From the NCBI GenBank assembly GCA_007127625.1, contig SKYZ01000134.1, positions 1 through 12,779 on the forward strand: DNA of 12,779 nt. The letters are read 5' to 3'. The translations under genes and the position numbers were made by a program. The DNA comes from Aquisalimonas sp. (GTDB lineage Bacteria; Pseudomonadota; Gammaproteobacteria; Nitrococcales; Aquisalimonadaceae). Positions 1 through 12,779 of this stretch are shown here, in pieces (the stretch's first letter is position 1; every line of letters starts with the position of its first letter). The notes below the pieces were generated by a model. That model was not told the DNA's origin. It made no database searches and saw only the letters and a program-made list of their open reading frames with translations.

Positions 1-947
1 GCCTGGCGGACCTCACCGGCAACACCCACCGCGCGGAGTTCAGTATCGACAAGCTCTGCGCCGCGGACCACGGTAGCGGCGCCCAGGGCCTGGTGGAGTT
101 CCGCGCCTTCGAGATGCCGCCCCACCCACGCATGAGTCTGGCCCAGATGCTGCTCCTGCGTGCGCTGGTGGCGCGGTTCTGGCAGACCCCGTATCACTAC
201 CCGCTGGTCCGCTGGGGCACCCTGCTCCACGACCGCTTCCTGCTGCCCCACTACACCTGGGAAGATTTCCGGGAGGTGATCGCCGACATGAACGCCGCCG
301 GCTACCCGGTGCAGGAGAGCTGGTTCGCCGCGTTCCACGAATTCCGCTTCCCGGTCCTGGGGCGGGCCAGCTACCACGGGGTGCAGATGGAGCTGCGCAC
401 CGCCCTGGAACCCTGGCCGGTGGTGGAAGTGCACAGCTCCATCCAGCGGGCGTCACGGGCGGTGGACTCCTCGGTGGAGCGGGTACAGTTCCGCTGTTCG
501 GGGCTGGATCCCGACCGCCACCTGATCACCTGCAACGGCCGCCGGGTGCCGTTGCAGTGCACGGGCACCCCGGGTGACTACGTCGCTGGTGTGCGCTTCC
601 GCGCCTGGCCGGACCCTCTGGGCCGCCACCCCACGGTGCCCGCGCATGCACCGCTGGTGTTCGACCTGGTGGACATAAACCTGGGGCGGCCGGTCGGAGG
701 CTGCGTCCACCACGTCGCCCACCCCGGCGGTCGCGCCTACGACACCGTCCCCATCAACGCCAACGAGGCCGAGGCGCGCCGGATGACCCGTTTCTGGGAC
801 TGGGGCCACAGCCCTGGCGGCGACCCCCAGCCGGACTGGCTGACCGCGCTGCGGATACGCCGCGGCGACCCCGCCACACCACCGGCGGAGGAGCCGGACC
901 CGGATTGCCCCCACACCCTGGATCTGCGCCGGGAGCCCCGGTCATGA
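1..947 (+). CDS. Transglutaminase/DUF2126 family putative amidoligase (5'-truncated by window edge)
   Basis: Only the last ~315 codons are present: the frame is open from base 3 to the TGA at 945-947, so the GTG at 93 is an internal valine. Full family members are about 1,100 residues: transglutaminase N-domain, Cys-His-Asp transglutaminase core, then the DUF2126 region annotated as a putative amidoligase. The visible part looks canonical: TGNTHRAEFSIDKL (bases 15-56), EFRAFEMPPHPRMSLAQ (96-146), a VRWGTLLHDRFLLP segment, LVFDLVD, then HPGGRAYDTVPINANEAEARR and a C-terminal HTLDLRREP. Conserved His (27-29), Arg (30-32), Glu (36-38), Arg (102-104) and Glu (111-113) are present, unlike in the downstream paralogue. 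It is probably cytoplasmic and may form amide bonds; substrate is unknown. The stop overlaps the next start as ATGA, indicating translational coupling. Whether its transglutaminase triad is intact cannot be seen. Confidence 0.9.
   Translation, partial: LADLTGNTHRAEFSIDKLCAADHGSGAQGLVEFRAFEMPPHPRMSLAQMLLLRALVARFWQTPYHYPLVRWGTLLHDRFLLPHYTWEDFREVIADMNAAGYPVQESWFAAFHEFRFPVLGRASYHGVQMELRTALEPWPVVEVHSSIQRASRAVDSSVERVQFRCSGLDPDRHLITCNGRRVPLQCTGTPGDYVAGVRFRAWPDPLGRHPTVPAHAPLVFDLVDINLGRPVGGCVHHVAHPGGRAYDTVPINANEAEARRMTRFWDWGHSPGGDPQPDWLTALRIRRGDPATPPAEEPDPDCPHTLDLRREPRS
931..935 (+). promoter_or_regulatory. Shine-Dalgarno GGGAG deciding the start of the second DUF2126 gene
   Basis: GGGAG lies eight bases upstream of the ATG at 944, inside the end of the preceding gene. 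The alternative in-frame TTG at 905 would add 13 residues that resemble nothing in the family, so the ATG is preferred. The family's N-terminal beta-strand (here IALRHRLDYRFDRPV) begins just after it. Confidence 0.65.
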
Positions 948-3900
948 ACGAGCCCGCACCCCGCATCGCCCTGCGTCACCGTCTGGACTACCGGTTCGAT
1001 CGACCGGTCAGGCTGTCCACTCACTGGCTGCGCCTGTGTCCGGCGCCCAACACTCGCGCCAAGGTCACCGCCTACACGCTGCGGGTCGGCCCGCGCACGC
1101 ATTTCCTGAACTGGCTCCGTGACCCCTTCGAGAACCACCTGGCGCGGCTGGATCTGCCGGAGCCGATCCGCCACTTCACCCTGGACGTGGAGATCCTCGC
1201 AGAGCTGCAACCGGCGAACCCCTTCGATTTCCTGGCGGAACCCTATGCGGTCAACCACCCCTTCGACTACCCGCAACAGCTGGCCCGCGACCTGGCGCCG
1301 TACCTGCGGCAACCGGCCATCGGCCCGATCACCCGTGCATGGCTTGCGCGACTGGACGGTACCGAAGCTGCCACCATCGAGCGCCTCACCGCACTGAACC
1401 AGCACGTCGGCACGACCCTTGCGACGGCGGACGACGACGCCCCGGGGAGCGTGGATACCGACGCGGTGCTCGACGCCGGCACCGGCTCCCCGCGCGCACT
1501 GGCGTGGCTGCTCACCCTGGCACTGCGCCATTTCGGAATCGCGGCACGCCTCGTGTCCGGCTACCGCCTCACCGGCGCCGCGCCTGACTACCACGCCGCC
1601 CTGGCCGCCTGGGTCGAGGCGTACCTGCCCGGCGCCGGATGGATCGGACTGGACCCGGTCGCGGGCCTGTTCACCGCGGAACAGCACATCCCCCTGGCCA
1701 CCGCCGCCGATCCGCTGCGCCTGCGGCCGGTCATCGGCTACCGGGAAGCCTGCGAGGAGACCGTCAGCGAGGACCTGGAGGTGATCACCCTGACGGCCCG
1801 GGGACCGGACTGGCCCTACACCGACGCGCAGTGGACCGCCATCCACGCCACTGCCGACCACGTGGATGAACGCCTGCAGCACCGCAACATCACCCTGACC
1901 GGCGGCACCGCGCTGGAATTCACCCGCCCGGACCACAAGGCGGCACCGGAATGGCGCACCGGCGGCCCGGGTCCGGACACGCTGGCCACCGCCCGACGGC
2001 TGGCCCGCCGGTTGCGCGACCGGCTGCTCCCGGGCGCGGCAATCTGTACCGGCCAGGGCGAGTGGTTTGCCGGCGAACCGGCGCCGCGCTGGCGCATCCA
2101 CTGCATTGCCCGCCGGGATGGCACGCCGGTGTGGCAGGATCCGGGCTTGCTGGATGTGCCGGGGCGAGACGACAGCCCCGGACGGGAGGCCGTACTGCCC
2201 CTCGCCAACAGCATTGCGCAGCGACTGGGACTCGCCCCGGAGGATGTGCTGCCGGCCCACGAGGACCAGCTGTTCGCCCTGTGGAACGATCGCCAGGCCT
2301 TGGAATTCCGGCCCGACGACAGTGACCTGGCCACCCCGGAGGCGCGCCTGGCCCTGGCCCGGCATCTGGATCGCGCCCACGGCCCTGCCACCGGGTTCGT
2401 GCTGCCGCTGCACCGGGATCCGGGCTCCGGTACCTGGCTTAGCGGCCCGTGGCCCACCCGGCGCGGGACCGTGACGCTGCTCCCCGGCGAAGCTCCCATG
2501 GGCTTCCGGCTGCCGCTGAATGGACTGCCCCGGACCGCGGAGGGGCGGGTGGAACCGCCGCCGGCCCGCTCGCCCTGGGACAGCGACGCACCGCTGTCGG
2601 CGGTGGCCGGGAGCCGTCGTGCCCTGCCCGGTGCCAGCGTCATGCCCGCCACCGCCCTGTGCGTTGAGCGCCGCCAGGGCCAGCTCCACGTCTTTCTGCC
2701 GCCGCTGCCCAGCAGTGACGACTTTCTGCATCTGATGGATGCCGTCGAGGGTGCAGCCGCGGAATGCGGCGTGGCGGTGCACCTGGAGGGCTACACACCA
2801 CCCACCGACCCGCGCCTGCAGTGCCTCGAACTCGAGCCGGAGACCGGCACCCTGCGCATCACCGTGCCACCGGCCCCGGACTGGCGCCAGGAGTGCGCCT
2901 GGCTGCAGGCCGTGTACGACGAAGCGGAACGCCTGGGACTGGCCGCCTGGACCGGTGACGCCGACCTGCCAGCGCCGGCGGGACAGCGGGCCGGTCGCCA
3001 ACTCGGCGGACCGACGCCGGCCCATAGCCCGTTCCTGCGCGACCCGGGGCTACTGCGCTCGCTGCTGCTCTACTGGCAGCGCCACCCCAGTCTCTCCTAC
3101 CTGTTCGCCGGCCCCCGCGTCGGCCCCGACGGCTGGGCGCCGAGACTGGACGAGGTCAGCGACGGCCACATGCGCGAGCTGGCACTTGCCCTGGAACGCC
3201 TGCCCCACGGGGACTGCGACCGGCCCTGGCTGGCGGACCGTGTGCTCTCACACCTGGTCACCGACCCCGCCGGCGATCCCCGGGGCGGCGAGTTCCGCCT
3301 GCACCGACTGTACCCGGCGGGCGCGGGAGGTGAACGGCTGGGCATAGTGGAACTGCACGCCTTCGCCATGGCCCCGCACGCCAGGCTCGCCGCCGTCCAG
3401 TCACTGCTGCTGCGGGCCATCTTACTGCGGCTGGCCGTGCGTCCGGAGACCGGTGCCCCGGTGCGCTGGGGCACGGCCCTGCACGACCGCTTCCTGCTGC
3501 CGGAAGTCCTGCAGCGGGATTTCGACACCGTTCTGGCGGAACTGGGCGACTGCGGTGTCAGGCTCGAAAGCCGCTGGTTCGCCCCCTGGATCACCTGGAT
3601 GTTCCCGCTGCTGGCCGACCTGCATGCGGGCCCGGTTCGCCTGCGCCTGCAACCGGCGCTGGAGCCCTGGCCGGTGCTGGCGGAGGAGAGCACCGGCCAG
3701 GGCAGCTTCCGCTTCATCGACCCGGCCAACGCCCGCTTCCAGGTGCACCTCACCGGCATGACACCGAACCGCCATGTGCTGCTATGCAATGGACACCGTG
3801 TCCCGCTGCAAGGCGCCGACCGGCCCGGCGAAGCGGTGGCCGGTATCCGCTGCAAGGTGGCTGATCCGCCAGCCACGCTGTATCCCGGCATGCCGCCGGT

Positions 3901-4219
3901 GCGTGCCCTGGTATTCGATCTGGTGGACACCTGGAGCGGCCGGACCCTTGGCGGCTGTACGTACGAACTCCCGGACACCGACGCCTGGAGCCCGCCAGAC
4001 GTTTCGCCGATCGCGGACACAGCGACTCCAGGGTATTCGGGCTCCCCGGCAGCGACGCGGCCGGCGCCTCCAGGCGCTGCCACGGCCTTCAGCGCCCGCG
4101 GGCGGCTCCTTCCGGAGAGCAGCCCCGGGACGCCGCCGGTGCCATCGACTCCGTCCACCGCGCCGGAGACCCCGTACCTCCTGGACCTGGCGGACCCCCG
4201 GCCTGGGTCAGGACTCTAG
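944..4219 (+). CDS. Transglutaminase/DUF2126-like protein, probable pseudoenzyme paralogue of the upstream gene
   Basis: A complete protein of 1,091 residues from the ATG at 944. Order: transglutaminase N-terminal domain (~6-100, with NPFDFLAEPYA), transglutaminase-like core (~150-245), DUF2126 region (~310-1005), then a Pro/Ser/Ala/Thr-rich tail (~1011-1075) ending YLLDLADP. The core keeps the scaffold (AWLLTLALRHFGIAARLVSGY; YLPGAGWIGLDP), but the usual GSCRDSAWLL is GSPRALAWLL, placing Pro183 where the nucleophilic Cys belongs. The usual HAWAEVYLPG is AAWVEAYLPG, putting Ala221 at the catalytic His. Asp237 remains. Residues shared by functional DUF2126 proteins and seen in the upstream gene are also changed: HRAE is RGGE (780-783), and EFRAFEMPPH is ELHAFAMAPH (His805, Ala808). 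From memory, the family also has a glycine-rich DGRHTGTGGGNH motif, not recognisable here. The intact long frame argues against a decaying pseudogene. A structural or regulatory partner of the upstream enzyme is the likeliest role (inference). Confidence 0.9.
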   Translation: MNEPAPRIALRHRLDYRFDRPVRLSTHWLRLCPAPNTRAKVTAYTLRVGPRTHFLNWLRDPFENHLARLDLPEPIRHFTLDVEILAELQPANPFDFLAEPYAVNHPFDYPQQLARDLAPYLRQPAIGPITRAWLARLDGTEAATIERLTALNQHVGTTLATADDDAPGSVDTDAVLDAGTGSPRALAWLLTLALRHFGIAARLVSGYRLTGAAPDYHAALAAWVEAYLPGAGWIGLDPVAGLFTAEQHIPLATAADPLRLRPVIGYREACEETVSEDLEVITLTARGPDWPYTDAQWTAIHATADHVDERLQHRNITLTGGTALEFTRPDHKAAPEWRTGGPGPDTLATARRLARRLRDRLLPGAAICTGQGEWFAGEPAPRWRIHCIARRDGTPVWQDPGLLDVPGRDDSPGREAVLPLANSIAQRLGLAPEDVLPAHEDQLFALWNDRQALEFRPDDSDLATPEARLALARHLDRAHGPATGFVLPLHRDPGSGTWLSGPWPTRRGTVTLLPGEAPMGFRLPLNGLPRTAEGRVEPPPARSPWDSDAPLSAVAGSRRALPGASVMPATALCVERRQGQLHVFLPPLPSSDDFLHLMDAVEGAAAECGVAVHLEGYTPPTDPRLQCLELEPETGTLRITVPPAPDWRQECAWLQAVYDEAERLGLAAWTGDADLPAPAGQRAGRQLGGPTPAHSPFLRDPGLLRSLLLYWQRHPSLSYLFAGPRVGPDGWAPRLDEVSDGHMRELALALERLPHGDCDRPWLADRVLSHLVTDPAGDPRGGEFRLHRLYPAGAGGERLGIVELHAFAMAPHARLAAVQSLLLRAILLRLAVRPETGAPVRWGTALHDRFLLPEVLQRDFDTVLAELGDCGVRLESRWFAPWITWMFPLLADLHAGPVRLRLQPALEPWPVLAEESTGQGSFRFIDPANARFQVHLTGMTPNRHVLLCNGHRVPLQGADRPGEAVAGIRCKVADPPATLYPGMPPVRALVFDLVDTWSGRTLGGCTYELPDTDAWSPPDVSPIADTATPGYSGSPAATRPAPPGAATAFSARGRLLPESSPGTPPVPSTPSTAPETPYLLDLADPRPGSGL

Positions 4220-4305: not shown

Positions 4306-6858
4306 ATGTCAGCCAGTCCCGAGACCACCCTCCTGTCCAGGTACCAGCGTCTGTCCGACCAGCCGGACGAGATGTTCGCGGCCAATGGTCAGGTGCGCAC
4401 CACCTGGCAGTACCTGGCCGACGCCCTGGACGCACTGGGCGTGGACAACCTGCGCCAGCGACACACACAGGCGCGACGCCTGCTGCGCGAGCGCGGCGTG
4501 ACCTACAACGTCTACGGCGACCCGCAGGGCCAGGAGCGCAGCTGGGACCTGGACCCGATTCCGGTGCTCATCGGCAGCGATGAATGGGCGCAGGTGGAGG
4601 GCGCGCTGCAGCGTCGGGCGGAGCTGTTCAACCTGATTCTCAAGGACATCTACGGCCCGCAGGAGCTGTTGCAGCGCGGCCTGCTCCCGGCAGAGGTCAT
4701 CTACGGCCACGGCGGATTCCTGCGCCCGTGCCATCCCTATGATCCGGACCTGGCACACCCGCTGACCATCTATGCCGCCGACCTGGCGCGCACCGACAAC
4801 GGGCGCCTGCACGTGGTCGGAGACCGCACCCAGTCGCCCTCCGGCGCCGGCTACGCCCTGGAGAACCGGGTGGTGATGAGCCGGGCCATGCCCAGCCTGT
4901 ATCGGGAATCTCACGTGCACCGCCTGGCCCTGTTCTTCCAGAACCTGCGCGCCAGCCTGGCCGCGCTGGCCCCGAACCGTGGCCAGGACGAGCCCAGCGT
5001 GGTGGTGCTCACCCCGGGCCCCCTCAACGAGACCTACTTCGAGCATTCGTTCCTGGCCAGCTACCTGGGGTACACCCTGGTGGAAGGGGGCGATCTCACG
5101 GTCCGCGACGGCCGGGTCTGGCTTCGCTCCATGGGCCGCCTGGAGCCGGTGGACGTAATCCTGCGGCGGCTCGACGACGACTACTGCGACGCGCTGGAAC
5201 TGCGCGGCGACTCCCTGCTGGGGGTTCCCGGCCTCACCGAGGCGGCGCGGCGCGGTAACGTGGCCCTGGCCAATCCCCTGGGTGCGGGGGTCCTGGAGAA
5301 TCCCGCCCTGCACGCCTTCCTGCCAGGGGTCGCGCAGCACTTTCTCGGGCGCGAGCTGGACCTGCCGACCCTGCCTACCTGGTGGTGCGGCGACCCCGAC
5401 TCCCTGGACCATGTGCTCGCCCACCTGGACGAACTGGTGGTCAAGCCCATCGGCCCTGGATCAGGGCCCGCCACACTGTTCGGCAGCGCCATGGACGCCT
5501 CCGCCCGGGACGCACTGGCCCAGCGTATCCGCCGGGCGCCGCACCGATTCGCCGCCCAGCAGCAGGCACGCTTCTCGTCGGTACCCACCCTGGGCGAGCA
5601 GGGCCTGGAACCCCGCGCCGCCACGCTGCGGACCTTCCTGGTGGGCCGCCCCGACGGCTATGCAGTGATGCCGGGCGGGCTCACGCGCATTGCGCCGGCA
5701 CCCGGTGAGCTCAACGCCTCCAACCAGGCCGGCGGCGTGTCCAAGGACACCTGGGTGGTCGCCTCGGAACCGGTGCGGGAAGTCAGCCTGATGAGTACCG
5801 AAGGCGGCATGGACACACCCATGGACCGTTCGGCGGCCCTGCCACCGGCGGCCACGGAGAACCTGTTCTGGATGGCCCGCTATGCCGAGCGGGCGGAGCA
5901 CGGGCTGCGCCTGCTGCGGGTGATTCAGCGGCTGCAGCGAACCGCCCAGGACTACCGGGACCCGCTGGATCAGCAGTGCCTGCAGACGCTGCTGATGGCG
6001 TTGAGCCGGGTCACCGACACCCGGCCGGGTTTCCTTGCCGGCGATCCGGCGCTGCTCGCCGACCCCATGCCGGAGTTGCGCTCGGTACTGCGGGATCCCG
6101 GCCGTGTGGGCACGGTGGCATTCAATCTCCAGGCCATGCTGGCCGCCTCCCACGCCGTGCGGGACCGACTGTCCCAGGACACCTGGCGGGTGATCGGCAA
6201 CATCCGCACGCGGCTGGCCGACGGCGGTGATGGGGATCCGGGGCCGGAGCTGGACGATGCCATCACTCTGCTCGCAGCGCTGCGCGGGCTCCAGGACGAC
6301 ACCATGGTCCACAGCCAGGCCTGGAGTTTCCTGGAACTGGGCCGCTGCATCGAGCGCGGGCTGCTCACCAGCAGCCTGCTGCGGGCCACCATGAGCACGG
6401 CCCTGGATCCGCGGCTGGAATCGCGGGTGCTGGAGGCGGTGCTCAGCCACCTGGAAAGCGTCAACGCCTACCGGCGGCAGCATCACCAGGTGGCCCAGGC
6501 CCGGCCGGTGCTGGATCTTGTGCTGCTGCACGAGCGCAATCCGCGCTCTGTGGGCTATCAGCTGGCACGCCTCAAGGCGGCGCTTCAGGCCCTGAACAGT
6601 GGCGCCCATGACAGCGGACTCAGCACCGAGGAGCGGCTGGTGCTGGAGGCGCATACGGCACTACAACTGAGCGATGCAGACAGACTGACCAGGGCGGACG
6701 CCGCGTCCGGACACCGCCCCGCACTGGATCAGCTGCTGGCGCGCAACGGGCGACTGCTTGACCGTACCGCCCGCCGCCTGGCGGAGTCGTACTTCTCCGA
6801 TCCCCGTGGTCCACGCCAGCTCACTGCGGCCAACACCGACCTGCAGGAAACCTCCTGA
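4306..6858 (+). CDS. Circularly permuted ATP-grasp / alpha-E domain fusion protein
   Basis: 850 residues. The first ~490 form a circularly permuted type-2 ATP-grasp module (the former DUF404/DUF407 families): YNVYGDPQG (67-75), GHGGFLRPCHPYD (134-146), VVGDRTQSPSGAGYALENR (170-188), VVVLTPGPLNETYFEHSFLA (232-251), RRLDDDYCDALELR (287-300), NPLGAGVLENPAL (323-335) and ELVVKPI (376-382), whose lysine is a candidate nucleotide ligand. From ~516 to the end is an alpha-helical alpha-E (DUF403) domain: ENLFWMARYAERAE (518-531), WSFLELGRCIERG and ERNPRSVGYQLARLK. In many genomes the two halves are separate adjacent genes; this fused form is also common. ATP-grasp enzymes of this type are predicted to ligate a carboxylate to an amine, with alpha-E as a partner domain; the substrate is unknown. 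No signal peptide is seen, so it is probably cytoplasmic. Its TGA overlaps the next ATG by one base (TGATG), implying coupling. Confidence 0.95.
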   Translation: MSASPETTLLSRYQRLSDQPDEMFAANGQVRTTWQYLADALDALGVDNLRQRHTQARRLLRERGVTYNVYGDPQGQERSWDLDPIPVLIGSDEWAQVEGALQRRAELFNLILKDIYGPQELLQRGLLPAEVIYGHGGFLRPCHPYDPDLAHPLTIYAADLARTDNGRLHVVGDRTQSPSGAGYALENRVVMSRAMPSLYRESHVHRLALFFQNLRASLAALAPNRGQDEPSVVVLTPGPLNETYFEHSFLASYLGYTLVEGGDLTVRDGRVWLRSMGRLEPVDVILRRLDDDYCDALELRGDSLLGVPGLTEAARRGNVALANPLGAGVLENPALHAFLPGVAQHFLGRELDLPTLPTWWCGDPDSLDHVLAHLDELVVKPIGPGSGPATLFGSAMDASARDALAQRIRRAPHRFAAQQQARFSSVPTLGEQGLEPRAATLRTFLVGRPDGYAVMPGGLTRIAPAPGELNASNQAGGVSKDTWVVASEPVREVSLMSTEGGMDTPMDRSAALPPAATENLFWMARYAERAEHGLRLLRVIQRLQRTAQDYRDPLDQQCLQTLLMALSRVTDTRPGFLAGDPALLADPMPELRSVLRDPGRVGTVAFNLQAMLAASHAVRDRLSQDTWRVIGNIRTRLADGGDGDPGPELDDAITLLAALRGLQDDTMVHSQAWSFLELGRCIERGLLTSSLLRATMSTALDPRLESRVLEAVLSHLESVNAYRRQHHQVAQARPVLDLVLLHERNPRSVGYQLARLKAALQALNSGAHDSGLSTEERLVLEAHTALQLSDADRLTRADAASGHRPALDQLLARNGRLLDRTARRLAESYFSDPRGPRQLTAANTDLQETS

Positions 6859-7745
6859 TGCGGTACCGGATCACCCACCGCACGGACTACAGCTACGCCC
6901 AGCCCATCATCCGCGGCTACAACGAGGCGCGACTGGCCCCGCGCAGCACGGCCGTCCAGTCGGTGCACAATCACGGTGTGACCATCTACCCCGCCCCGGC
7001 CTATCGGGCCGAGCGTGTGGACTTCTTCGGCAACCGGGTGCTGCACTTCGCCATGCAGCACCCCCATAGCCAGCTGACGGTGACCGCGGTCAGCGAGGTG
7101 GAACTGCTGCAGAGCTCGCCGGAACCGCAGCTGGCCAACGGCATGGCCTGGGAACAGGCGGCCACCGCCACCCGGAGCGACTGCAGCCCCACGGGGCTGG
7201 ACGCGCGGCAGTATCTGCTGGAGTCCCCGCAGGTGCCGCTGAGCGACGAGGCTCTGGCCTATGCCCGGGGTTCGTTTGCCACCGGCCGGGCGGTCACTGA
7301 CGCAGTGGCCAATCTCATGGGCAGGATTCACCAGGATTTTGCCTACGATCCCACGGCCACCACTGTCAGCACACCCATCGACCGGGTGTTCCGGGATCAG
7401 CGGGGCGTATGCCAGGACTTTGCCCACCTGGCCATTGCCTGTGTGCGCAGCATGGGCATCGCCGCGCGTTACGTCTCCGGTTACCTTGAGACGCTACCGC
7501 CGCCGGGACAGGAGAAACTCCAGGGCGCCGATGCATCGCATGCGTGGTTCGCGGTGTACGATCCCAGCCTGGGCTGGATCGACTATGATCCCACCAATAA
7601 CGTGGTGCCCATGGACCAGCACATCACCACGGCCTGGGGCCGCGACTACGGGGACATTTCGCCACTGAAAGGTGTCATTTTCGGTGGCTCCGGCGGACAG
7701 CGCAGCCATGTGGCCGTGGACGTCGAGCGGCTGACGGACACCTGA
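6858..7745 (+). CDS. Transglutaminase-like cysteine protein (bacterial, with N-terminal domain)
   Basis: 295 residues, typical for the compact family. An N-terminal beta domain (MRYRITHRTDYSYAQP; DFFGNRVLHF at 55-64) precedes a transglutaminase core with an intact triad: Cys185 in RGVCQDFAH, His228 in SHAWFAVYDP, and Asp244 in WIDYDPTNN. The conserved SMGIAARYVSGY (198-209) and a C-terminal WGRDYGDISPLKGVIFGG (260-277) are standard. Such proteins act as cysteine proteases, amidases or acyl-transferases; in this neighbourhood they may process an amide bond formed by the adjacent ligases (inference). The start overlaps the preceding stop by one base, and AGGAA at 6845-6849 gives a good ribosome site. 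There is no signal peptide. With its triad complete, it contrasts with the large triad-less paralogue two genes upstream and could supply catalysis to a shared complex. Confidence 0.95.
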   Translation: MRYRITHRTDYSYAQPIIRGYNEARLAPRSTAVQSVHNHGVTIYPAPAYRAERVDFFGNRVLHFAMQHPHSQLTVTAVSEVELLQSSPEPQLANGMAWEQAATATRSDCSPTGLDARQYLLESPQVPLSDEALAYARGSFATGRAVTDAVANLMGRIHQDFAYDPTATTVSTPIDRVFRDQRGVCQDFAHLAIACVRSMGIAARYVSGYLETLPPPGQEKLQGADASHAWFAVYDPSLGWIDYDPTNNVVPMDQHITTAWGRDYGDISPLKGVIFGGSGGQRSHVAVDVERLTDT

Positions 7746-7767: not shown

Positions 7768-9795
7768 ATGTTGCAGACGGTACGCGATTTTCCTCATCAG
7801 GTACGCACCATCGAGAATCTCTGGATCCCCCTGCCGGACGGCACGCGCCTGGCGGCGCGGGCGTGGATCCCCGCGCACGCCGATGATCATCCGGTGCCGG
7901 CCATCGTCGAGTACATCCCCTATCGCAAACGCGAGTTCACGCGCCTGCGCGACGACGTCATGCACGGCTGGTTCGCCGGCCACGGCTACGCCTGCCTGCG
8001 GGTGGACCTGCGCGGCAGCGGCGAGTCCGACGGCCTGCTCACCGACGAGTATCTGCCCCGGGAGCTGGACGATGGCGAGGCCATCCTGGAGTGGATCGCC
8101 GCGCAGCCCTGGTGCAACGGCCGCACCGGCATGATCGGCATCTCCTGGGGGGGCTTCAACGGCCTGCAACTGGCCGCACGCCAACCACCGTCCCTGGGCG
8201 CCATCATCACCGCCTGCTCCACGGACGACCGCTACACCGACGATATCCACTACATGGGCGGCTGCCTGCTGGGGGACAACCTGTCCTGGGCGTCCACCAT
8301 GTACAGCCACACCGCCCTGCCGCCGGACCCGGCCATTGTCGGCGAGCGCTGGCGGGACATGTGGCATGCCCGCATGGAGGGCAGCGGCTTCTGGCTGGAG
8401 CAGTGGCTGCGCCACCAGCACCGCGACGACTACTGGCGGCACGGTTCCATCAACGAGAACTACGACCGCGTACAGATCCCGGTGATGGCCATCTCCGGCT
8501 GGGCCGACGGCTACTCCAACGCCGTGTTCCGCCTGCTGGAGAACCTGCGCGGCCCCCGCATGGGGCTGATCGGCCCCTGGGGCCACAAGTACCCCCACCA
8601 GGGCCTGCCCGGGCCCACCATGGATTTCCTCAGCGAAGCGGTGCGCTGGTGGGACCGTTGGCTCAAGAACGAGGCTTCGGGGATCGAGGCGGAACCCATG
8701 CTGCGCGCCTGGATGCAGGACAGCGCCCCGCCGGAGCCGAACCTGCGCACCCGTCCCGGGCGCTGGGTGGCCGAGAACAGCTGGCCGTCACCGCGCGTCG
8801 AGCACGTCAGTCACCCCCTGCTGCGCGGTCGCGTGGGCGGGCCCGGGGCCCGTGAAGATAGCGGTGAGTTGCACATCCAGTCGACCCTGTCCGTGGGCCT
8901 TTTCGCCGGGCGCTGGGCGTCGTTCACTGCCACGCCTGATCTGCCGCACGACCAGCGCGAGGAGGACGGCGGCGCTCTGGTGTTCGACAGCGAGCCCCTG
9001 ACCGCGCCGATGGAGATCCTGGGCGCGCCGGTGGTGACCCTGCGCCTGGCCGTGGACCAGCCGGTGGCCATGATCTGCGTGCGGCTGTCGGACGTGGCCG
9101 AGAACCAGGAAGCGACGCGCGTTACCTACGGCTTGCTCAACCTCACCCACCGGAACAGCCACGAGACGCCGGAGCCCCTGGAACCCGGAACGTTCTACAC
9201 CGTTCGGGTCCAGCTCAACGACATTGCCCAGCGCTTCCGGGCGGGGCACCGGCTGCGCATCTCCCTGTCCACCTCCTACTGGCCGGTGGCCTGGCCCGCA
9301 CCACGACCGGTGTGCCTTACCGTGGCCACCGCCCAGAGCAGCCTGGACCTGCCCATCCGCCGCGGCGGCGAGGCCGACGACGCCGCCATCCATGATCCGG
9401 GGCCAGCGCGCGGGGCGCCCCAGTCGGAGACTACGCTGCTGCAGCCGCGGGACTACGGCTGGACCGTGACCCGCGATCTGGCGGCGGACCGCTCGGTGCT
9501 GGAGGTCAAGAAGGACGAAGGCGCGTTCCGTATCAACGCCCTGGAGTTGGACATGCGCATCCGCACCGTGGAGTGGTACAGCCACCAGGGCAACGACTAC
9601 GGCTCGGTGCGCGGCGAGACACTGAGCGAACGGGGGCTGGTCCGGGGTGACTGGGCGGTGACGGTGCGGACCCGCACGGTGCTGACCTCGGACGCCACGC
9701 ACTTCCACTTGCGTGCGGAAATGGACGGCTTCGAGGGCGACCGGCGCGTCCATTCCCACAACGTCGAACGTTCCATTCCGCGGAATCTGGTCTAA
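7768..9795 (+). CDS. CocE/NonD family (peptidase S15-type) alpha/beta hydrolase
   Basis: 675 residues. The alpha/beta-hydrolase core (~15-320) has the oxyanion-region motif VEYIPYRKRE (47-56), VDLRGSGESDG (79-89), nucleophile Ser126 in GISWGGFNG, acid Asp247 in GWADGYSN and base His273 in GPWGHKYPH: a complete Ser-Asp-His triad. A C-terminal jelly-roll domain (~330-530) matches the X-Pro dipeptidyl-peptidase C-terminal fold (EILGAPVVTLRLAVDQPVA; RFRAGHRLRISLSTSYWP). A further ~120 residues (555-675) extend beyond the usual cocaine-esterase or glutaryl-acylase layout. Family members cleave esters, X-Pro peptides or acyl-amides, so a peptide- or amide-cleaving role suits this amide-ligase operon (inference). 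It starts 22 bases after the transglutaminase gene, and the ligase-like gene follows 21 bases downstream. No signal peptide is visible. A paralogue faces it at the right end of the window and shares the C-terminal extension. Confidence 0.93.
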   Translation: MLQTVRDFPHQVRTIENLWIPLPDGTRLAARAWIPAHADDHPVPAIVEYIPYRKREFTRLRDDVMHGWFAGHGYACLRVDLRGSGESDGLLTDEYLPRELDDGEAILEWIAAQPWCNGRTGMIGISWGGFNGLQLAARQPPSLGAIITACSTDDRYTDDIHYMGGCLLGDNLSWASTMYSHTALPPDPAIVGERWRDMWHARMEGSGFWLEQWLRHQHRDDYWRHGSINENYDRVQIPVMAISGWADGYSNAVFRLLENLRGPRMGLIGPWGHKYPHQGLPGPTMDFLSEAVRWWDRWLKNEASGIEAEPMLRAWMQDSAPPEPNLRTRPGRWVAENSWPSPRVEHVSHPLLRGRVGGPGAREDSGELHIQSTLSVGLFAGRWASFTATPDLPHDQREEDGGALVFDSEPLTAPMEILGAPVVTLRLAVDQPVAMICVRLSDVAENQEATRVTYGLLNLTHRNSHETPEPLEPGTFYTVRVQLNDIAQRFRAGHRLRISLSTSYWPVAWPAPRPVCLTVATAQSSLDLPIRRGGEADDAAIHDPGPARGAPQSETTLLQPRDYGWTVTRDLAADRSVLEVKKDEGAFRINALELDMRIRTVEWYSHQGNDYGSVRGETLSERGLVRGDWAVTVRTRTVLTSDATHFHLRAEMDGFEGDRRVHSHNVERSIPRNLV

Positions 9796-9803
9796 CTGGC
9801 ATT

Positions 9804-9810
9804 GGGAGGT
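9804..9810 (+). promoter_or_regulatory. Strong Shine-Dalgarno GGGAGGT fixing the ligase start at 9817
   Basis: GGGAGGT lies six bases before the ATG at 9817. A longer frame starting at TTG 9802 would overlap this site and add only MGGGT, which is the Shine-Dalgarno translated. The ATG is therefore the start. Confidence 0.75.
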
Positions 9811-9816
9811 GGCACC

Positions 9817-10839
9817 ATGGCCGAAACGTTCACCATCGGGGTCCTCAGCGGCGACCCCAACCTGCCTTACAGTTACGGCGTCGACGGCCGCTTCGGCCCC
9901 GACGACATGGAGGCCGTGCGCCGCGCAGTGGAGGCGGTGGACGGCCTGGAGGATTACCGTGCCATCGAATTCAGCGACCATGGCGAGTTGCTGGAACGTC
10001 TCCAGTCGGACCCGCCGGACCTGGCTCTGAACTTCTGCGATACGGGCTACCGCAATCTGCTGACCAATGAGCGCAACATCCCCGCGCTGCTGGAACTGCT
10101 GGACATCCCCTACACCGGTTCCGATCCGGCCTGCATGGGCGTGTGCAGCGACAAGGCGCTGGTGCGGCTGCTGGCGGCCAACCACGGCATTCCCGTCCCC
10201 GGGGAGACGGTGGTGGACCTGCGCAGCGACCCGCTCACGGTACCGGAGCTTTACCCGGCCATGATCAAGCCCAACGGCGGCTGCGGCAGCCTCGGCGTGA
10301 CCACAGACTCGGTGGTGCACGACGCCACCGAGGCCGACAGCTACCTGCGCTGGCTGGCCTCCGAAATGCCGGAGGCGGGTGCCCGAGCGCTGATCCAGGA
10401 CTTCCTCACTGGCCCGGAATACACCCTAGGTTTGATCGGCAATCCCACCACCGGGCTCACGGTGCTACCGATTCTCGAGATCGACTACAGCGCCCTGGAC
10501 CCGGACCTGCCCCCGATCCTCTCCTACAGTTCCAAGGTGGATCCGGATTCGCCCTACTGGCAGGCCCTGCGCTTCCGGCAGGCGGAGCTGGACACGGCCA
10601 CCGAGGCGGCCATGGTGAGCGAGGCGGTGTGGCTGTTCGAGCGTCTGGGCTTCCGCGACTATGCACGCATCGACTTCCGCGCCGGCGCCGACGGCGTCCC
10701 GCGGCTCCTGGACGCCAACTTCAACCCCACCTGGAGCCACGACGGCAAGATGGCGATCATGGCTGGCTGGGCGGGCTACGACTATGCCGATCTGGTGCGG
10801 ATGATCATCGAGGCGGCCCGGGAGCGGTACGGGCTGTAG
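9817..10839 (+). CDS. D-alanine-D-alanine ligase-like ATP-grasp protein
   Basis: 340 residues from the ATG at 9817. The layout is that of Ddl-type ATP-grasp ligases. An N-terminal domain holds LNFCDTGYRN (71-80) and IPALLELLDIPYTGSDP (88-104), then DKALVRLLA (112-120). ATP-binding follows with YPAMIKPNGGCGSLGV (146-161; Lys151 and the glycine loop) and FLTGPEYTLGLIG (196-208). The metal/substrate region is YARIDFRAG (282-290) and LLDANFNPTWSHDG (297-310). In true Ddl the last motif reads E-x-N-T-x-P-G with a metal-binding Glu; here it is D-A-N-F-N-P-T, so Asp299 replaces Glu and the substrate-side Gly is lost. It is probably a cytoplasmic carboxylate-amine ligase with a substrate other than D-Ala-D-Ala. 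A housekeeping Ddl is unlikely, since no cell-wall gene is nearby. It is last in the operon, and its TAG stop lies in the GTAG head of a REP element. Confidence 0.88.
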   Translation: MAETFTIGVLSGDPNLPYSYGVDGRFGPDDMEAVRRAVEAVDGLEDYRAIEFSDHGELLERLQSDPPDLALNFCDTGYRNLLTNERNIPALLELLDIPYTGSDPACMGVCSDKALVRLLAANHGIPVPGETVVDLRSDPLTVPELYPAMIKPNGGCGSLGVTTDSVVHDATEADSYLRWLASEMPEAGARALIQDFLTGPEYTLGLIGNPTTGLTVLPILEIDYSALDPDLPPILSYSSKVDPDSPYWQALRFRQAELDTATEAAMVSEAVWLFERLGFRDYARIDFRAGADGVPRLLDANFNPTWSHDGKMAIMAGWAGYDYADLVRMIIEAARERYGL

Positions 10840-10860
10840 GGCGGACCTTCAGGTCCGCCT
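10836..10860 (+). repeat. GTAG-headed REP-like palindrome, copy 1
   Basis: GTAG (10836-10839) is followed directly by the stem GGCGGACCT (10840-10848), loop TC, and AGGTCCGCC (10851-10859). A GTAG tetranucleotide at the foot of a hairpin is the signature of REP elements mobilised by TnpA-REP (RAYT) transposases. The TAG of GTAG is the stop codon of the ligase-like gene. The hairpin could also protect the mRNA 3' end, but no T-run follows to make it a classical terminator. Confidence 0.75.
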
Positions 10861-10861
10861 T

Positions 10862-10878
10862 GCGTTTCCCGGAAACGC
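10862..10878. repeat. Short inverted repeat after REP copy 1
   Basis: GCGTTTCC (10862-10869) and GGAAACGC (10871-10878) are exact reverse complements around one central base. As a hairpin this gives a six-pair stem with loop CCCGG. It sits two bases past the previous stem, so two hairpins stand side by side just after the stop codon. No T-run is present. Confidence 0.6.
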
Positions 10879-10908
10879 GAACCGCGGAGGTCAATCCGAG
10901 GTGGTCAT

Positions 10909-10932
10909 GGCGGACCTGATGGTCCGCCCTAC
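10909..10932 (-). repeat. GTAG-headed REP-like palindrome, copy 2 (inverted)
   Basis: Read on the minus strand: GTAG (CTAC at 10929-10932), stem GGCGGACC, loop ATCA, stem GGTCCGCC. The bases differ from copy 1 mainly at the loop. With copy 1 it makes a head-outward inverted pair separated by about 48 bases, the arrangement of a BIME. Confidence 0.75.
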
Positions 10933-10941
10933 CGATTCTGT

Positions 10942-10961
10942 CGGTGCATCTCGATGCACCG
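10942..10961. repeat. Perfect 9-bp inverted repeat with TC loop
   Basis: CGGTGCATC (10942-10950) and GATGCACCG (10953-10961) are exact reverse complements around TC. The architecture (9-bp stem, 2-base TC loop) equals that of REP copies 1 and 3, but the stem sequence is different and no GTAG flanks it. It may be a separate repeat family. Confidence 0.6.
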
Positions 10962-10975
10962 CGACGAGGCCCAGG

Positions 10976-11016
10976 CCCTGGATCAAAGCTTCCCGGCGTG
11001 CTTTGGATGCCCAGGG
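10976..11016. repeat. Long imperfect inverted repeat
   Basis: CCCTGGATCAAAGC (10976-10989) pairs with GCTTTGGATGCCCAGGG (11000-11016), allowing three unpaired bases, around a ten-base loop. This is the longest stem in the intergenic region. It has no GTAG head and no resemblance to the GGACC-core elements. Function is unknown; a hairpin RNA or a remnant mobile repeat are both possible. Confidence 0.55.
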
Positions 11017-11018
11017 TG

Positions 11019-11040
11019 TCGCGGCTTGCGCCGCTCCTAC
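11019..11040 (-). repeat. GTAG-headed REP-like element with a different stem
   Basis: On the minus strand: GTAG (CTAC at 11037-11040), GA, then GCGGC-GCAA-GCCGC. It has the GTAG foot but a stem unlike the GGACC-core copies. It resembles the GTAGGAGCGGC-type REP elements familiar from Pseudomonas and relatives. A perfect 12-bp palindrome, GTGGGCGCCCAC (11042-11053), adjoins it. Confidence 0.6.
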
Positions 11041-11041
11041 A

Positions 11042-11053
11042 GTGGGCGCCCAC
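11042..11053. repeat. Perfect 12-bp palindrome
   Basis: GTGGGCGCCCAC is its own reverse complement. It begins one base after the CTAC of the adjoining REP-like element and may be part of the same mosaic. A regulatory site is less likely because both flanking genes end here. Confidence 0.5.
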
Positions 11054-11063
11054 GGGATCAACC

Positions 11064-11087
11064 GTAGGGTGGACCTTCAGGTCCACC
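11064..11087 (+). repeat. GTAG-headed REP-like palindrome, copy 3
   Basis: GTAG (11064-11067), stem GGTGGACCT (11068-11076), loop TC, stem AGGTCCACC (11079-11087). Compared with copy 1, position 3 of the left arm is T instead of C, and the right arm carries the matching A instead of G. The paired change preserves the stem, which indicates selection on the hairpin. Confidence 0.75.
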
Positions 11088-11130
11088 ATTGCGGGGTTCG
11101 GCGAGCCACGTTGGCCTGCATATCGGGGAA

Positions 11131-11156
11131 GTCGGACCTGAAGGTCTGCCCCCTAC
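11131..11156 (-). repeat. GTAG-headed REP-like palindrome, copy 4 (inverted, degenerate)
   Basis: On the minus strand: GTAG (CTAC at 11153-11156), then GGGGCAGACCT, TC, AGGTCCGAC. The core AGACCT-TC-AGGTCC is kept, but the outer stem is imperfect. It pairs with copy 3 in inverted orientation and lies nine bases from the stop codon of the leftward hydrolase gene. Confidence 0.65.
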
Positions 11157-11165
11157 GGATCAGCT

Positions 11166-12779
11166 CTACAGGAAACCCCGTGGAATGGTCTCGTCCCACT
11201 CCCGGCGGCGCACCTGCTCCTGGCCCTCGTACGCCTCCAGGGTTGCCTGGACACGGAAGTTGTCCCGGTCACCGGAAATCACCGTGCGGCACTCGATGCG
11301 CACCGACCAGTCGCCGCGGCGGAACTTGGTCTTCTGCTGAATCTCCGCCCAGGCACTCAACGGATCGTCATCGCGAATCCGGAAGGTTCGGCGCATGGTG
11401 TAACCGATGGTGAGGTCGATGTCCTCGATGCGTGCCAGCGCGGCCCCGCCGAAATCGCCACCATCGCCGAAGGCGGTATACACCATTTCGTCCGTGGTCA
11501 GATCCAGCTCCACCAGCCGCTGGTTCTGCGCCCACTCCAGCGGCGTGTGCTCGGACACCGGCCCGCGCTCCGGCGGCTCGAAGGGCCTGAGTTCCGCGTC
11601 CGCCTCCCGCGGTGGCCGCTCCGGGAGCTCCAGAGTGCTGGTGCCCGTGTAGACCGTGAGTTCCACGGGTTCCGGTGACGGCCAGATCATGGGCCAGTAG
11701 CTGGTGGACACGGCAACCCGGACGGTGTGGCCGGCCCGGAAGCCGTAGCCGATGTCGTTCAGCTGCACCCGCACCCGGTAGCGTTTCCCGGGCTCCAGCG
11801 GTTCGGGGTGCTCATGGCTGTCCCGGTGGGTCAGGTTGAGACTGCCCCAGCTGACCCGGGTGGAACTGCCGTCCGGCGCAACGTCGTTCAACCGCACGAT
11901 CACCTGCGCCACGGGCTGGTCCACGGAGAGTTCCAGGGTCACCACCGGGGCACCCAGGATCTCCATGGGCGCCGCCAGAGGGTCGGAGTCGAAGGCCAGC
12001 GACTTGCCGTCGTCGGCACGCTGATCCAGGGGCGCGTCCCCATGGGCGCCGAAGCCGTAGAAATCGCCGCCGCGCAGGCCCGTGGTCTGGGGCGAGCGTA
12101 CGCGCACGGCGTCCTCCGCATCGGCTTTCTCGCCCAGGGAGAGCACATTCAGGTGCCAGCGCCGGTTGTCGATCCGCGGCGACGGCCAGGTCTCCTCGGC
12201 CACCCAGCGCCCGGGGCGTTCGGGGTGGTAGGGCGCCGGCGGCAGCCAGTCCTCCATCCACACACGCACCTGCGGTTCGTCCATGATGCCGGTGTCCACG
12301 CCCTTGAGCCAGTAGTCCCACCAGCGCACCGCCTCCTGGAAGAAGCCGATCTGCGGCCCCGGCTCGGCGGCATGGGGAAAGGCGTGTGGCCAGGGGCCGA
12401 TGAGCGCCTTGCGCGGCACGTTCAGGCCTTCCATGAGTCGGGGGATGGCATTAACGTAGCCGTCCGCCCAGCCGCCTACGGCATAGACGGCACAGTCGAT
12501 GGCGTCGAAGTTCTCGCACACGGAACCGTGCTGCCAGTAGGCATCCCGGGTGGGATGGCGCATCCAGACCGCCGGAAACAGGCGGTTGTGGTCCAGCCGC
12601 TGGAGCCACTGCTCCCGCCAGGCGTCCCCGGCCAGCTCCGGGTCCGGCGGGCAGGCATTCACCGAGAACAGCGCCGAACCCCAGGCCAGGTTCTCGTTCA
12701 GCAGGCAACCCCCCTTGTAGTGGGCGTCGTCGGCGTAGCGGTCGTCGGTGGAGCACATGGTGATGATGGCCTTCAGCGC
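11166..12779 (-). CDS. CocE/NonD family (peptidase S15-type) hydrolase, second copy (N-terminus beyond right edge)
   Basis: The frame is open from the right edge (12779) to TAG at 11166-11168, giving 537 visible codons. The ATG at 12756-12758 is internal: upstream codons read ALKAIIT, matching GAIIT before CSTDDRY in the paralogue. About 144 N-terminal residues, including the serine nucleophile, are off-window. Visible are Asp in GGWADGYVN (codon 12462-12464) and His in GPWPHAFPH (codon 12384-12386), then a jelly-roll domain (EILGAPVVTLELSVDQPVA; FRAGHTVRVAVSTSYWP). The same extra C-terminal region as the convergent paralogue follows, ending ETIPRGFL (paralogue: RSIPRNLV). Close matches such as GGCLL, EAVRWWD-WLK and PGRWVAE-WPSPR show common descent from one duplication. 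It likely hydrolyses an ester or amide in the cytoplasm; the substrate is unknown. It converges on the ligase-like gene across the repeat-filled gap, so it has its own transcription unit. Confidence 0.93.
   Translation of the reverse strand, partial: ALKAIITMCSTDDRYADDAHYKGGCLLNENLAWGSALFSVNACPPDPELAGDAWREQWLQRLDHNRLFPAVWMRHPTRDAYWQHGSVCENFDAIDCAVYAVGGWADGYVNAIPRLMEGLNVPRKALIGPWPHAFPHAAEPGPQIGFFQEAVRWWDYWLKGVDTGIMDEPQVRVWMEDWLPPAPYHPERPGRWVAEETWPSPRIDNRRWHLNVLSLGEKADAEDAVRVRSPQTTGLRGGDFYGFGAHGDAPLDQRADDGKSLAFDSDPLAAPMEILGAPVVTLELSVDQPVAQVIVRLNDVAPDGSSTRVSWGSLNLTHRDSHEHPEPLEPGKRYRVRVQLNDIGYGFRAGHTVRVAVSTSYWPMIWPSPEPVELTVYTGTSTLELPERPPREADAELRPFEPPERGPVSEHTPLEWAQNQRLVELDLTTDEMVYTAFGDGGDFGGAALARIEDIDLTIGYTMRRTFRIRDDDPLSAWAEIQQKTKFRRGDWSVRIECRTVISGDRDNFRVQATLEAYEGQEQVRRREWDETIPRGFL

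Follow-up and report, generated by a model that had tools for sequence, protein, structure and literature searches.

A putative non-catalytic partner protein in a poorly understood system for peptide modification in some gammaproteobacteria

A tandem pair of transglutaminase-DUF2126 genes

We analyzed a 12,779-nucleotide (nt) stretch of DNA from Aquisalimonas sp. (contig SKYZ01000134.1 of assembly GCA_007127625.1; hereafter the window) in which two adjacent genes encode proteins that combine a transglutaminase with a DUF2126 domain. The upstream gene is of the intact type and is cut by the contig end, so that the window holds its C-terminal 314 amino acids (positions 3 to 947; PF09899, 446 bits). 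The downstream gene (944 to 4219), here called the second copy, encodes 1,091 amino acids and carries substitutions at catalytic positions of the transglutaminase domain and at conserved positions of the DUF2126 region. The two genes overlap at an ATGA (944 to 947) that contains the stop codon of the intact twin and the start codon of the second copy. These and all other operon features are on the forward strand. The N-terminal 549 amino acids of the twin are located on another contig (C34) of the same genome, where GSCRDTGWLL and LHAWTEV are present, the catalytic state is Cys-His-Asp, and the neighbours are Alpha-E and ATP-grasp genes.

The second copy is followed by a gene encoding a circularly permuted ATP-grasp/Alpha-E fusion (4306 to 6858; PF14403, 496 bits; PF04168, 215 bits) and by one for a small intact transglutaminase (6858 to 7745), which contains Cys185, His228 and Asp244, as an earlier note made from the sequence alone had stated. 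The complete gene order, seen in three other genomes (G002, G006 and G011), is ATP-grasp, Alpha-E, intact copy, second copy, ATP-grasp/Alpha-E fusion, small transglutaminase. Among the 79 named loci without a second copy (L033 to L111), there are 52 in which the fusion and the small transglutaminase come after the intact copy on the same strand.

The second copy consists of a Bact_transglu_N domain (amino acids 9–86, 968 to 1201; PF08379, 70.4 bits against a cut-off of 27), a Transglut_core domain (133–238, 1340 to 1657; PF01841, 51.6 bits against 23) and a DUF2126 region matching the glutamine-synthetase fold (285–972, 1796 to 3859; putative amidoligase profile PF09899, 675.8 bits against 27). 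It has a transglutaminase fold, and its AlphaFold2 model has a predicted local distance difference test (pLDDT) score of 89.5. The intact proteins (PF08379-PF01841-PF09899) have the same architecture, the same operon and a similar length, and the second copy is 39–44% identical to those of the 120 listed homologues that are of the intact type, ten in all. However, the intact proteins carry the Cys-His-Asp triad together with GGEPTF, GQGKWYPGE, GGGNH and TGNTHRAEF, and the second copy is without these. Beyond its DUF2126 region the second copy has a proline-rich tail (3968 to 4171, amino acids 1009–1076), for which model confidence is low at approximately amino acids 1011–1050. The PYLLDL end that follows the tail is similar to the TLDLR with which intact copies end.

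Catalytic positions and selection

The earlier note had described the second copy as a large transglutaminase paralogue with an undisrupted frame of 1,091 codons, in which Pro183 (codon CCG, 1490 to 1492) replaces the cysteine nucleophile, Ala221 (codon GCC, 1604 to 1606) replaces the catalytic histidine, and Asp237 (1652 to 1654) is kept. All of these assignments hold. The frame translates free of stops. Of 1,181 homologues, the 120 that were listed were aligned with the window protein, giving 121 rows in which the window protein occurs twice. The cysteine column is P50, C33, A22, S10, H2, T2, V1, Y1, the histidine column is H112, A4, C2, S1, Y1, Q1, and aspartate is present in 121 of 121 rows. 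A profile alignment with the solved chain 6g49 sets Pro183 in the column of the cysteine of GFCAHYAG and Ala221 in that of the HAW histidine. The model agrees: helix 183–196 begins at Pro183, strand 217–228 contains Ala221, and strand 232–237 closes with Asp237. Compared with an active transglutaminase or cysteine protease, the second copy therefore lacks the cysteine and the histidine and has only the aspartate. The substitutions are not a sequencing or assembly error, because G002, a complete genome in one contig from the same genus, carries the same Pro/Ala/Asp. This Pro/Ala form is found in the window, in G002 and in two further proteins (82–84% identity).

The DUF2126 region has also lost residues that are nearly invariant in the intact copies. 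Ala323 (1910 to 1912) occupies the position of the glutamate of GGEPTF, which is present in 97 of 97 intact rows and in 8 of the 118 rows of the second-copy type (clade 2, described below). Glu373 (2060 to 2062) stands where 97 of 97 intact rows carry the lysine of GQGKWYPGE, a residue with a frequency below 0.02 in clade 2. Ala683-Gly684 (2990 to 2995) replaces the Asn-His of GGGNH (96/96 intact, 0/118 in clade 2), with one further intact copy (L163) reading Ser-His. Pro779-Arg780 (3278 to 3283) replaces the Thr-His of TGNTHRAEF (96/96 intact; threonine in 1 and histidine in 4 of the 118). Overall, the intact-invariant residues E323, K373, N683, H684, T779, H780 and K788 are A, E, A, G, P, R and R in the window protein. 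The intact rows in these counts include the half-copy of the window's own genome (L029). The model of the intact DUF2126 domain is of moderate confidence (pLDDT 74.5), and a PDB sequence search with the intact domain gave nothing credible.

Despite these losses the gene is under purifying selection, which the earlier note had proposed examining. Between the window and G002 the ratio of nonsynonymous to synonymous substitution rates (dN/dS) is 0.26 for the second copy (95% interval 0.215–0.313), with 0.189 (0.112–0.305) for the transglutaminase part and 0.265 for the remainder. The corresponding values for the intact twin are 0.062 in the transglutaminase part and 0.12 elsewhere. The transglutaminase part is less constrained in the second copy than in the twin (997 of 1000 bootstraps), yet it is still clearly constrained. 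With an intact frame, dN/dS well below 1 and the catalytic residues gone, the second copy fits the description of a pseudoenzyme, and the suggestion that it is a maintained one is supported.

Distribution and history of the second copy

We found the second copy in nine genomes: the window's own, G002, G006, G009, G011, Methylolobus aquaticus, G215, G337 and G394. Its frame is intact and it is adjacent to the intact twin in all nine, and none of the nine has the catalytic cysteine. The states are Pro-Ala-Asp (window and G002), Ala-His-Asp (two), Pro-His-Asp (two), and Ser-Cys-Asp, His-His-Asp and Ala-Cys-Asp (one each). The stop/start overlap is 4 nt in the window, G002, G011, Methylolobus, G215 and G337, and 8 nt in G006 and G009; in G394 one ATG gives a possible 4-nt overlap and a second ATG lies just downstream. 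G215 also has a third DUF2126 gene (L112:360-2489, 709 amino acids) upstream of the pair. It has no transglutaminase domain, and forms of two motifs (GTEPTF and GNSHRAEL) are present in it with GGGNH absent.

Cys-His-Asp is present in 138 of 138 intact-type copies with a transglutaminase site read, including all nine upstream twins. These comprise 86 loci (L029 excluded), 10 database proteins with no genomic context, 36 further genomes, the window's own copy, 4 copies read by pattern, and that of G009, whose transglutaminase part was read from L024.

Sampling found the enzyme family in 65 of the 369 class genomes and in 120 of the 398 phylum genomes. A second full-length copy was identified in 4 of the 369 class genomes, in 5 of 54 genomes of the order and in 1 of the 398 phylum genomes (the window's own); all five from the order belong to the window's family, which contributed 14 genomes. 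Second copies in these samples were typed by bit score and position, and since two candidates were scored per genome in the class and phylum samples, third copies could be missed there. Residue-level reading covered 40 of the single-copy class genomes, and copies in the phylum-only sample were typed by score. The order searches around G337 and G394 covered 3 and 5 genomes, respectively. Within the window's genus, three of the four other genomes had no DUF2126 match. Judged by the names attached to relatives of the small transglutaminase, the window lies near Ectothiorhodospiraceae. A contig scan yielded one clade-2 copy (Methylolobus) among its best 80 loci, from which we draw no frequency, and a genome-contig scan with a single protein as query found no relative.

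Intact copies (29 rows) and clade 2 (118 rows) form two fully supported groups, repeated in a second tree. The clade-2 counts leave out the window's own protein (P0002), approximately five of the 118 rows are locus copies that duplicate database proteins, and the IQ-TREE tree omits the long branches P0024, P0099 and P0118. The cysteine is absent from 95 of the 118 clade-2 rows, including the deepest branches, and the Cys-bearing rows are in one nested subclade, with one row excepted. Parsimony gives 9 changes at this position, at least 6 of which are forced by well-supported branches. A single loss without regain was rejected (p-AU 0.0002 for the non-Cys rows as one clade, 6.7e-45 for the Cys-bearing clade-2 rows as one clade, both tested in a quick tree of 64 rows, on 49 and 9 of them, respectively). 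The history could be one loss on the stem with about 8 later changes, which is the cheaper account, or, with regain forbidden, as many as 17 separate losses. The histidine is kept in 107 of the 118 rows, and alanine at its position is found in four, all within the clade of the window's genus.

We also considered whether the cysteine had been relocated to position 205. Cys205 is present in 32 of 118 clade-2 rows, 20 of which have the normal cysteine besides, and the candidate was rejected. At this position (1556 to 1558 in the window), 20 of the 23 clade-2 rows with the normal cysteine also have a cysteine.

In a set of 133 intact copies, those with a second copy beside them group in a single clade (8 of 8, support 100). 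The pair is thus inherited as a unit.

Possible function and relation to known systems

These results suggest that a poorly understood peptide-modifying system of some gammaproteobacteria includes a partner protein that is not catalytic. The second copy would be an ancient paralogue of the transglutaminase-DUF2126 enzyme whose gene lies directly before it. It is predicted to keep both folds, a transglutaminase followed by a glutamine-synthetase-like amidoligase, and it lacks the transglutaminase cysteine (in the window's genus the histidine too) and several second-domain residues that are invariant in intact copies. Judging from these residues it probably catalyzes neither reaction. The gene structure points to an interaction with the twin: the second copy would be made together with it and, as one half of a hetero-oligomer, provide a scaffold, activate the twin or present the substrate. 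Given the fixed neighbour, the overlapping genes and the shared inheritance, the likeliest account is that the second copy acts with the intact twin. We place the probability that it is a maintained double pseudoenzyme, serving as a non-catalytic partner subunit of the twin in an ATP-grasp/Alpha-E/transglutaminase peptide-modifying system, at a little under 0.6. A more specific version is tentative. The peptide-modifying enzyme might always require two paralogues, one intact and one dead in both domains, held at a fixed ratio by the overlapping genes. The amidoligase-like site would have been lost a single time, early in the history of the clade, the nucleophile of the transglutaminase would have changed repeatedly, and the pseudo-subunit would complete or control the intact active sites in a hetero-oligomer resembling glutamine synthetase.

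Several observations weigh against a dead partner subunit. The dN/dS estimates come from a counting method applied to one close pair (dS approximately 0.36). Because 22 of the 23 Cys-bearing clade-2 rows also keep the histidine and the aspartate, some members of the clade may be active transglutaminases. The only residue specific to paired intact copies is at position 739, weak support for coevolution. The window protein keeps E803, has Glu325 beside the lost Glu323, and retains R734, D736, E737, D765, R766, D848, E907, R923, D926 and N949; with so many second-domain invariants kept, nucleotide binding may remain. In clade 2, position 779 is aliphatic and position 780 is arginine or lysine in most rows (103/118 and 98/118), which looks like new constraint rather than decay. 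The relationship of DUF2126 to glutamine synthetase is itself not significant by hhalign alone (probabilities 0.68% and 0.15%), and a third DUF2126 segment tested for a Glu-x-Arg motif against glutamine synthetase gave no sensible match.

An unlikely alternative, yet the strongest of those considered, is that the second copy is a maintained pseudoenzyme working apart from its twin, with dead domains that bind the system's peptide or small-molecule substrate so as to carry, sense or sequester it. The fold and many transglutaminase-core residues outside the triad are kept, and peptide binding has been proposed for inactive transglutaminase domains elsewhere (PMC3482391). However, the adjacency in nine of nine genomes, the start/stop overlap and the common clade of paired twins suggest joint work. 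Ranked after it, and improbable as well, is a re-purposed enzyme, whose glutamine-synthetase-like domain changed its chemistry or substrate instead of dying and whose transglutaminase domain survives as a relic or serves in docking. Clade 2 does have preferences of its own, which include glutamate for K373 (99/118) and glycine for R665 (113/118) besides those at T779 and H780, and many charged invariants are kept. However, columns 323 and 683–684 have become variable and are not newly fixed, and the glutamate and histidine motifs most like those of glutamine synthetase are the ones lost. A decaying pseudogene with a frame not yet disrupted is very improbable: dN/dS is two- to threefold above that of the twin and the family is missing from most other genomes of the genus, but the dN/dS values largely refute it, and the intact frames, the conserved Pro/Ala form and the confident model also stand against it. 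Least probable of all is a transglutaminase domain still active through a substitute nucleophile or base, which the serine or threonine at the cysteine position of some relatives and the nearby His217 might suggest, since proline is incapable of the nucleophile role, the relatives' Cys205 is Ser205 in the window protein, and His217, at the start of the same strand in the model and four residues before Ala221, is probably too far away to replace the histidine.

That selection keeps a twin dedicated to a non-catalytic role would mean that the large enzyme probably functions as part of a complex. The second copy would then be a natural handle on the system, as bait in a pull-down or for deletion without loss of the enzyme. 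The repeated changes of the catalytic cysteine provide a natural series for studying transitions from enzyme to pseudoenzyme.

Inactive transglutaminases are known from other settings. RloB of Pseudomonas aeruginosa and HM2192 of Shewanella are inactive transglutaminases fused to seven membrane helices (PMC12239564, PMC12096838). They are likewise bacterial, have a mutant phenotype, and RloB adjoins an ATP-grasp gene; however, they are membrane-bound, and the accessible parts of these papers mention no DUF2126 domain or intact twin. In the second copy the transglutaminase domain is followed by a predicted glutamine-synthetase fold. According to PMC3482391, inactive transglutaminase domains of polymorphic toxins have similarly lost at least one of Cys, His and Asp, but they lie behind a signal peptide or membrane helix, are followed by RHS repeats, and are not operonic twins. 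Protein 4.2 (EPB42) also belongs to the Transglut_core family and lacks catalytic activity (PMC10318531). It differs in being an animal protein of another transglutaminase family. To our knowledge EPB42 has no linked intact partner gene.

Searches of the available literature on DUF2126 and COG names returned no paper, and those on inactive or pseudo-transglutaminases none whose title or opening abstract lines deal with this intact/dead pair; a 2009 amidoligase survey could mention inactive members. We know of no product assigned to ATP-grasp/Alpha-E/transglutaminase operons. The Anbu operon (ATP-grasp, Alpha-E, transglutaminase-like, Anbu) shares its first three gene types with the operon described here (PMC6376114, PMC5666114), and the domain association is noted in PMC3597751. 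Published tests for interactions with an Anbu-type operon detected none (PMC6376114). The window contains no Anbu gene, its operon being cut upstream by the contig end, and there was no PF00227 match at the locus in the eight genomes searched. Weak proteasome-family matches to frames of 271–277 amino acids, possibly Anbu, are located away from the operon in G009 (L122), G011 (L123) and G002 (L124).

The remainder of the window (7768 to 12779) contains a D-Ala-D-Ala-ligase-like ATP-grasp gene (9817 to 10839) between two S15/PepX_C-type hydrolases on opposite strands, an S15-family hydrolase at 7768 to 9795 and a second at 11166 to 12779, the latter on the strand opposite to the operon. For each of the 25 NCBIfam models shown, the ATP-grasp gene scores under the cut-off. 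None of the 90 fetched loci with operon matches has these hydrolases and the ligase-like gene adjoining the operon. In G002, the slot of the first hydrolase, directly behind the small transglutaminase, is occupied by a transposase-like open reading frame with no profile classification (L025:14295-15320).
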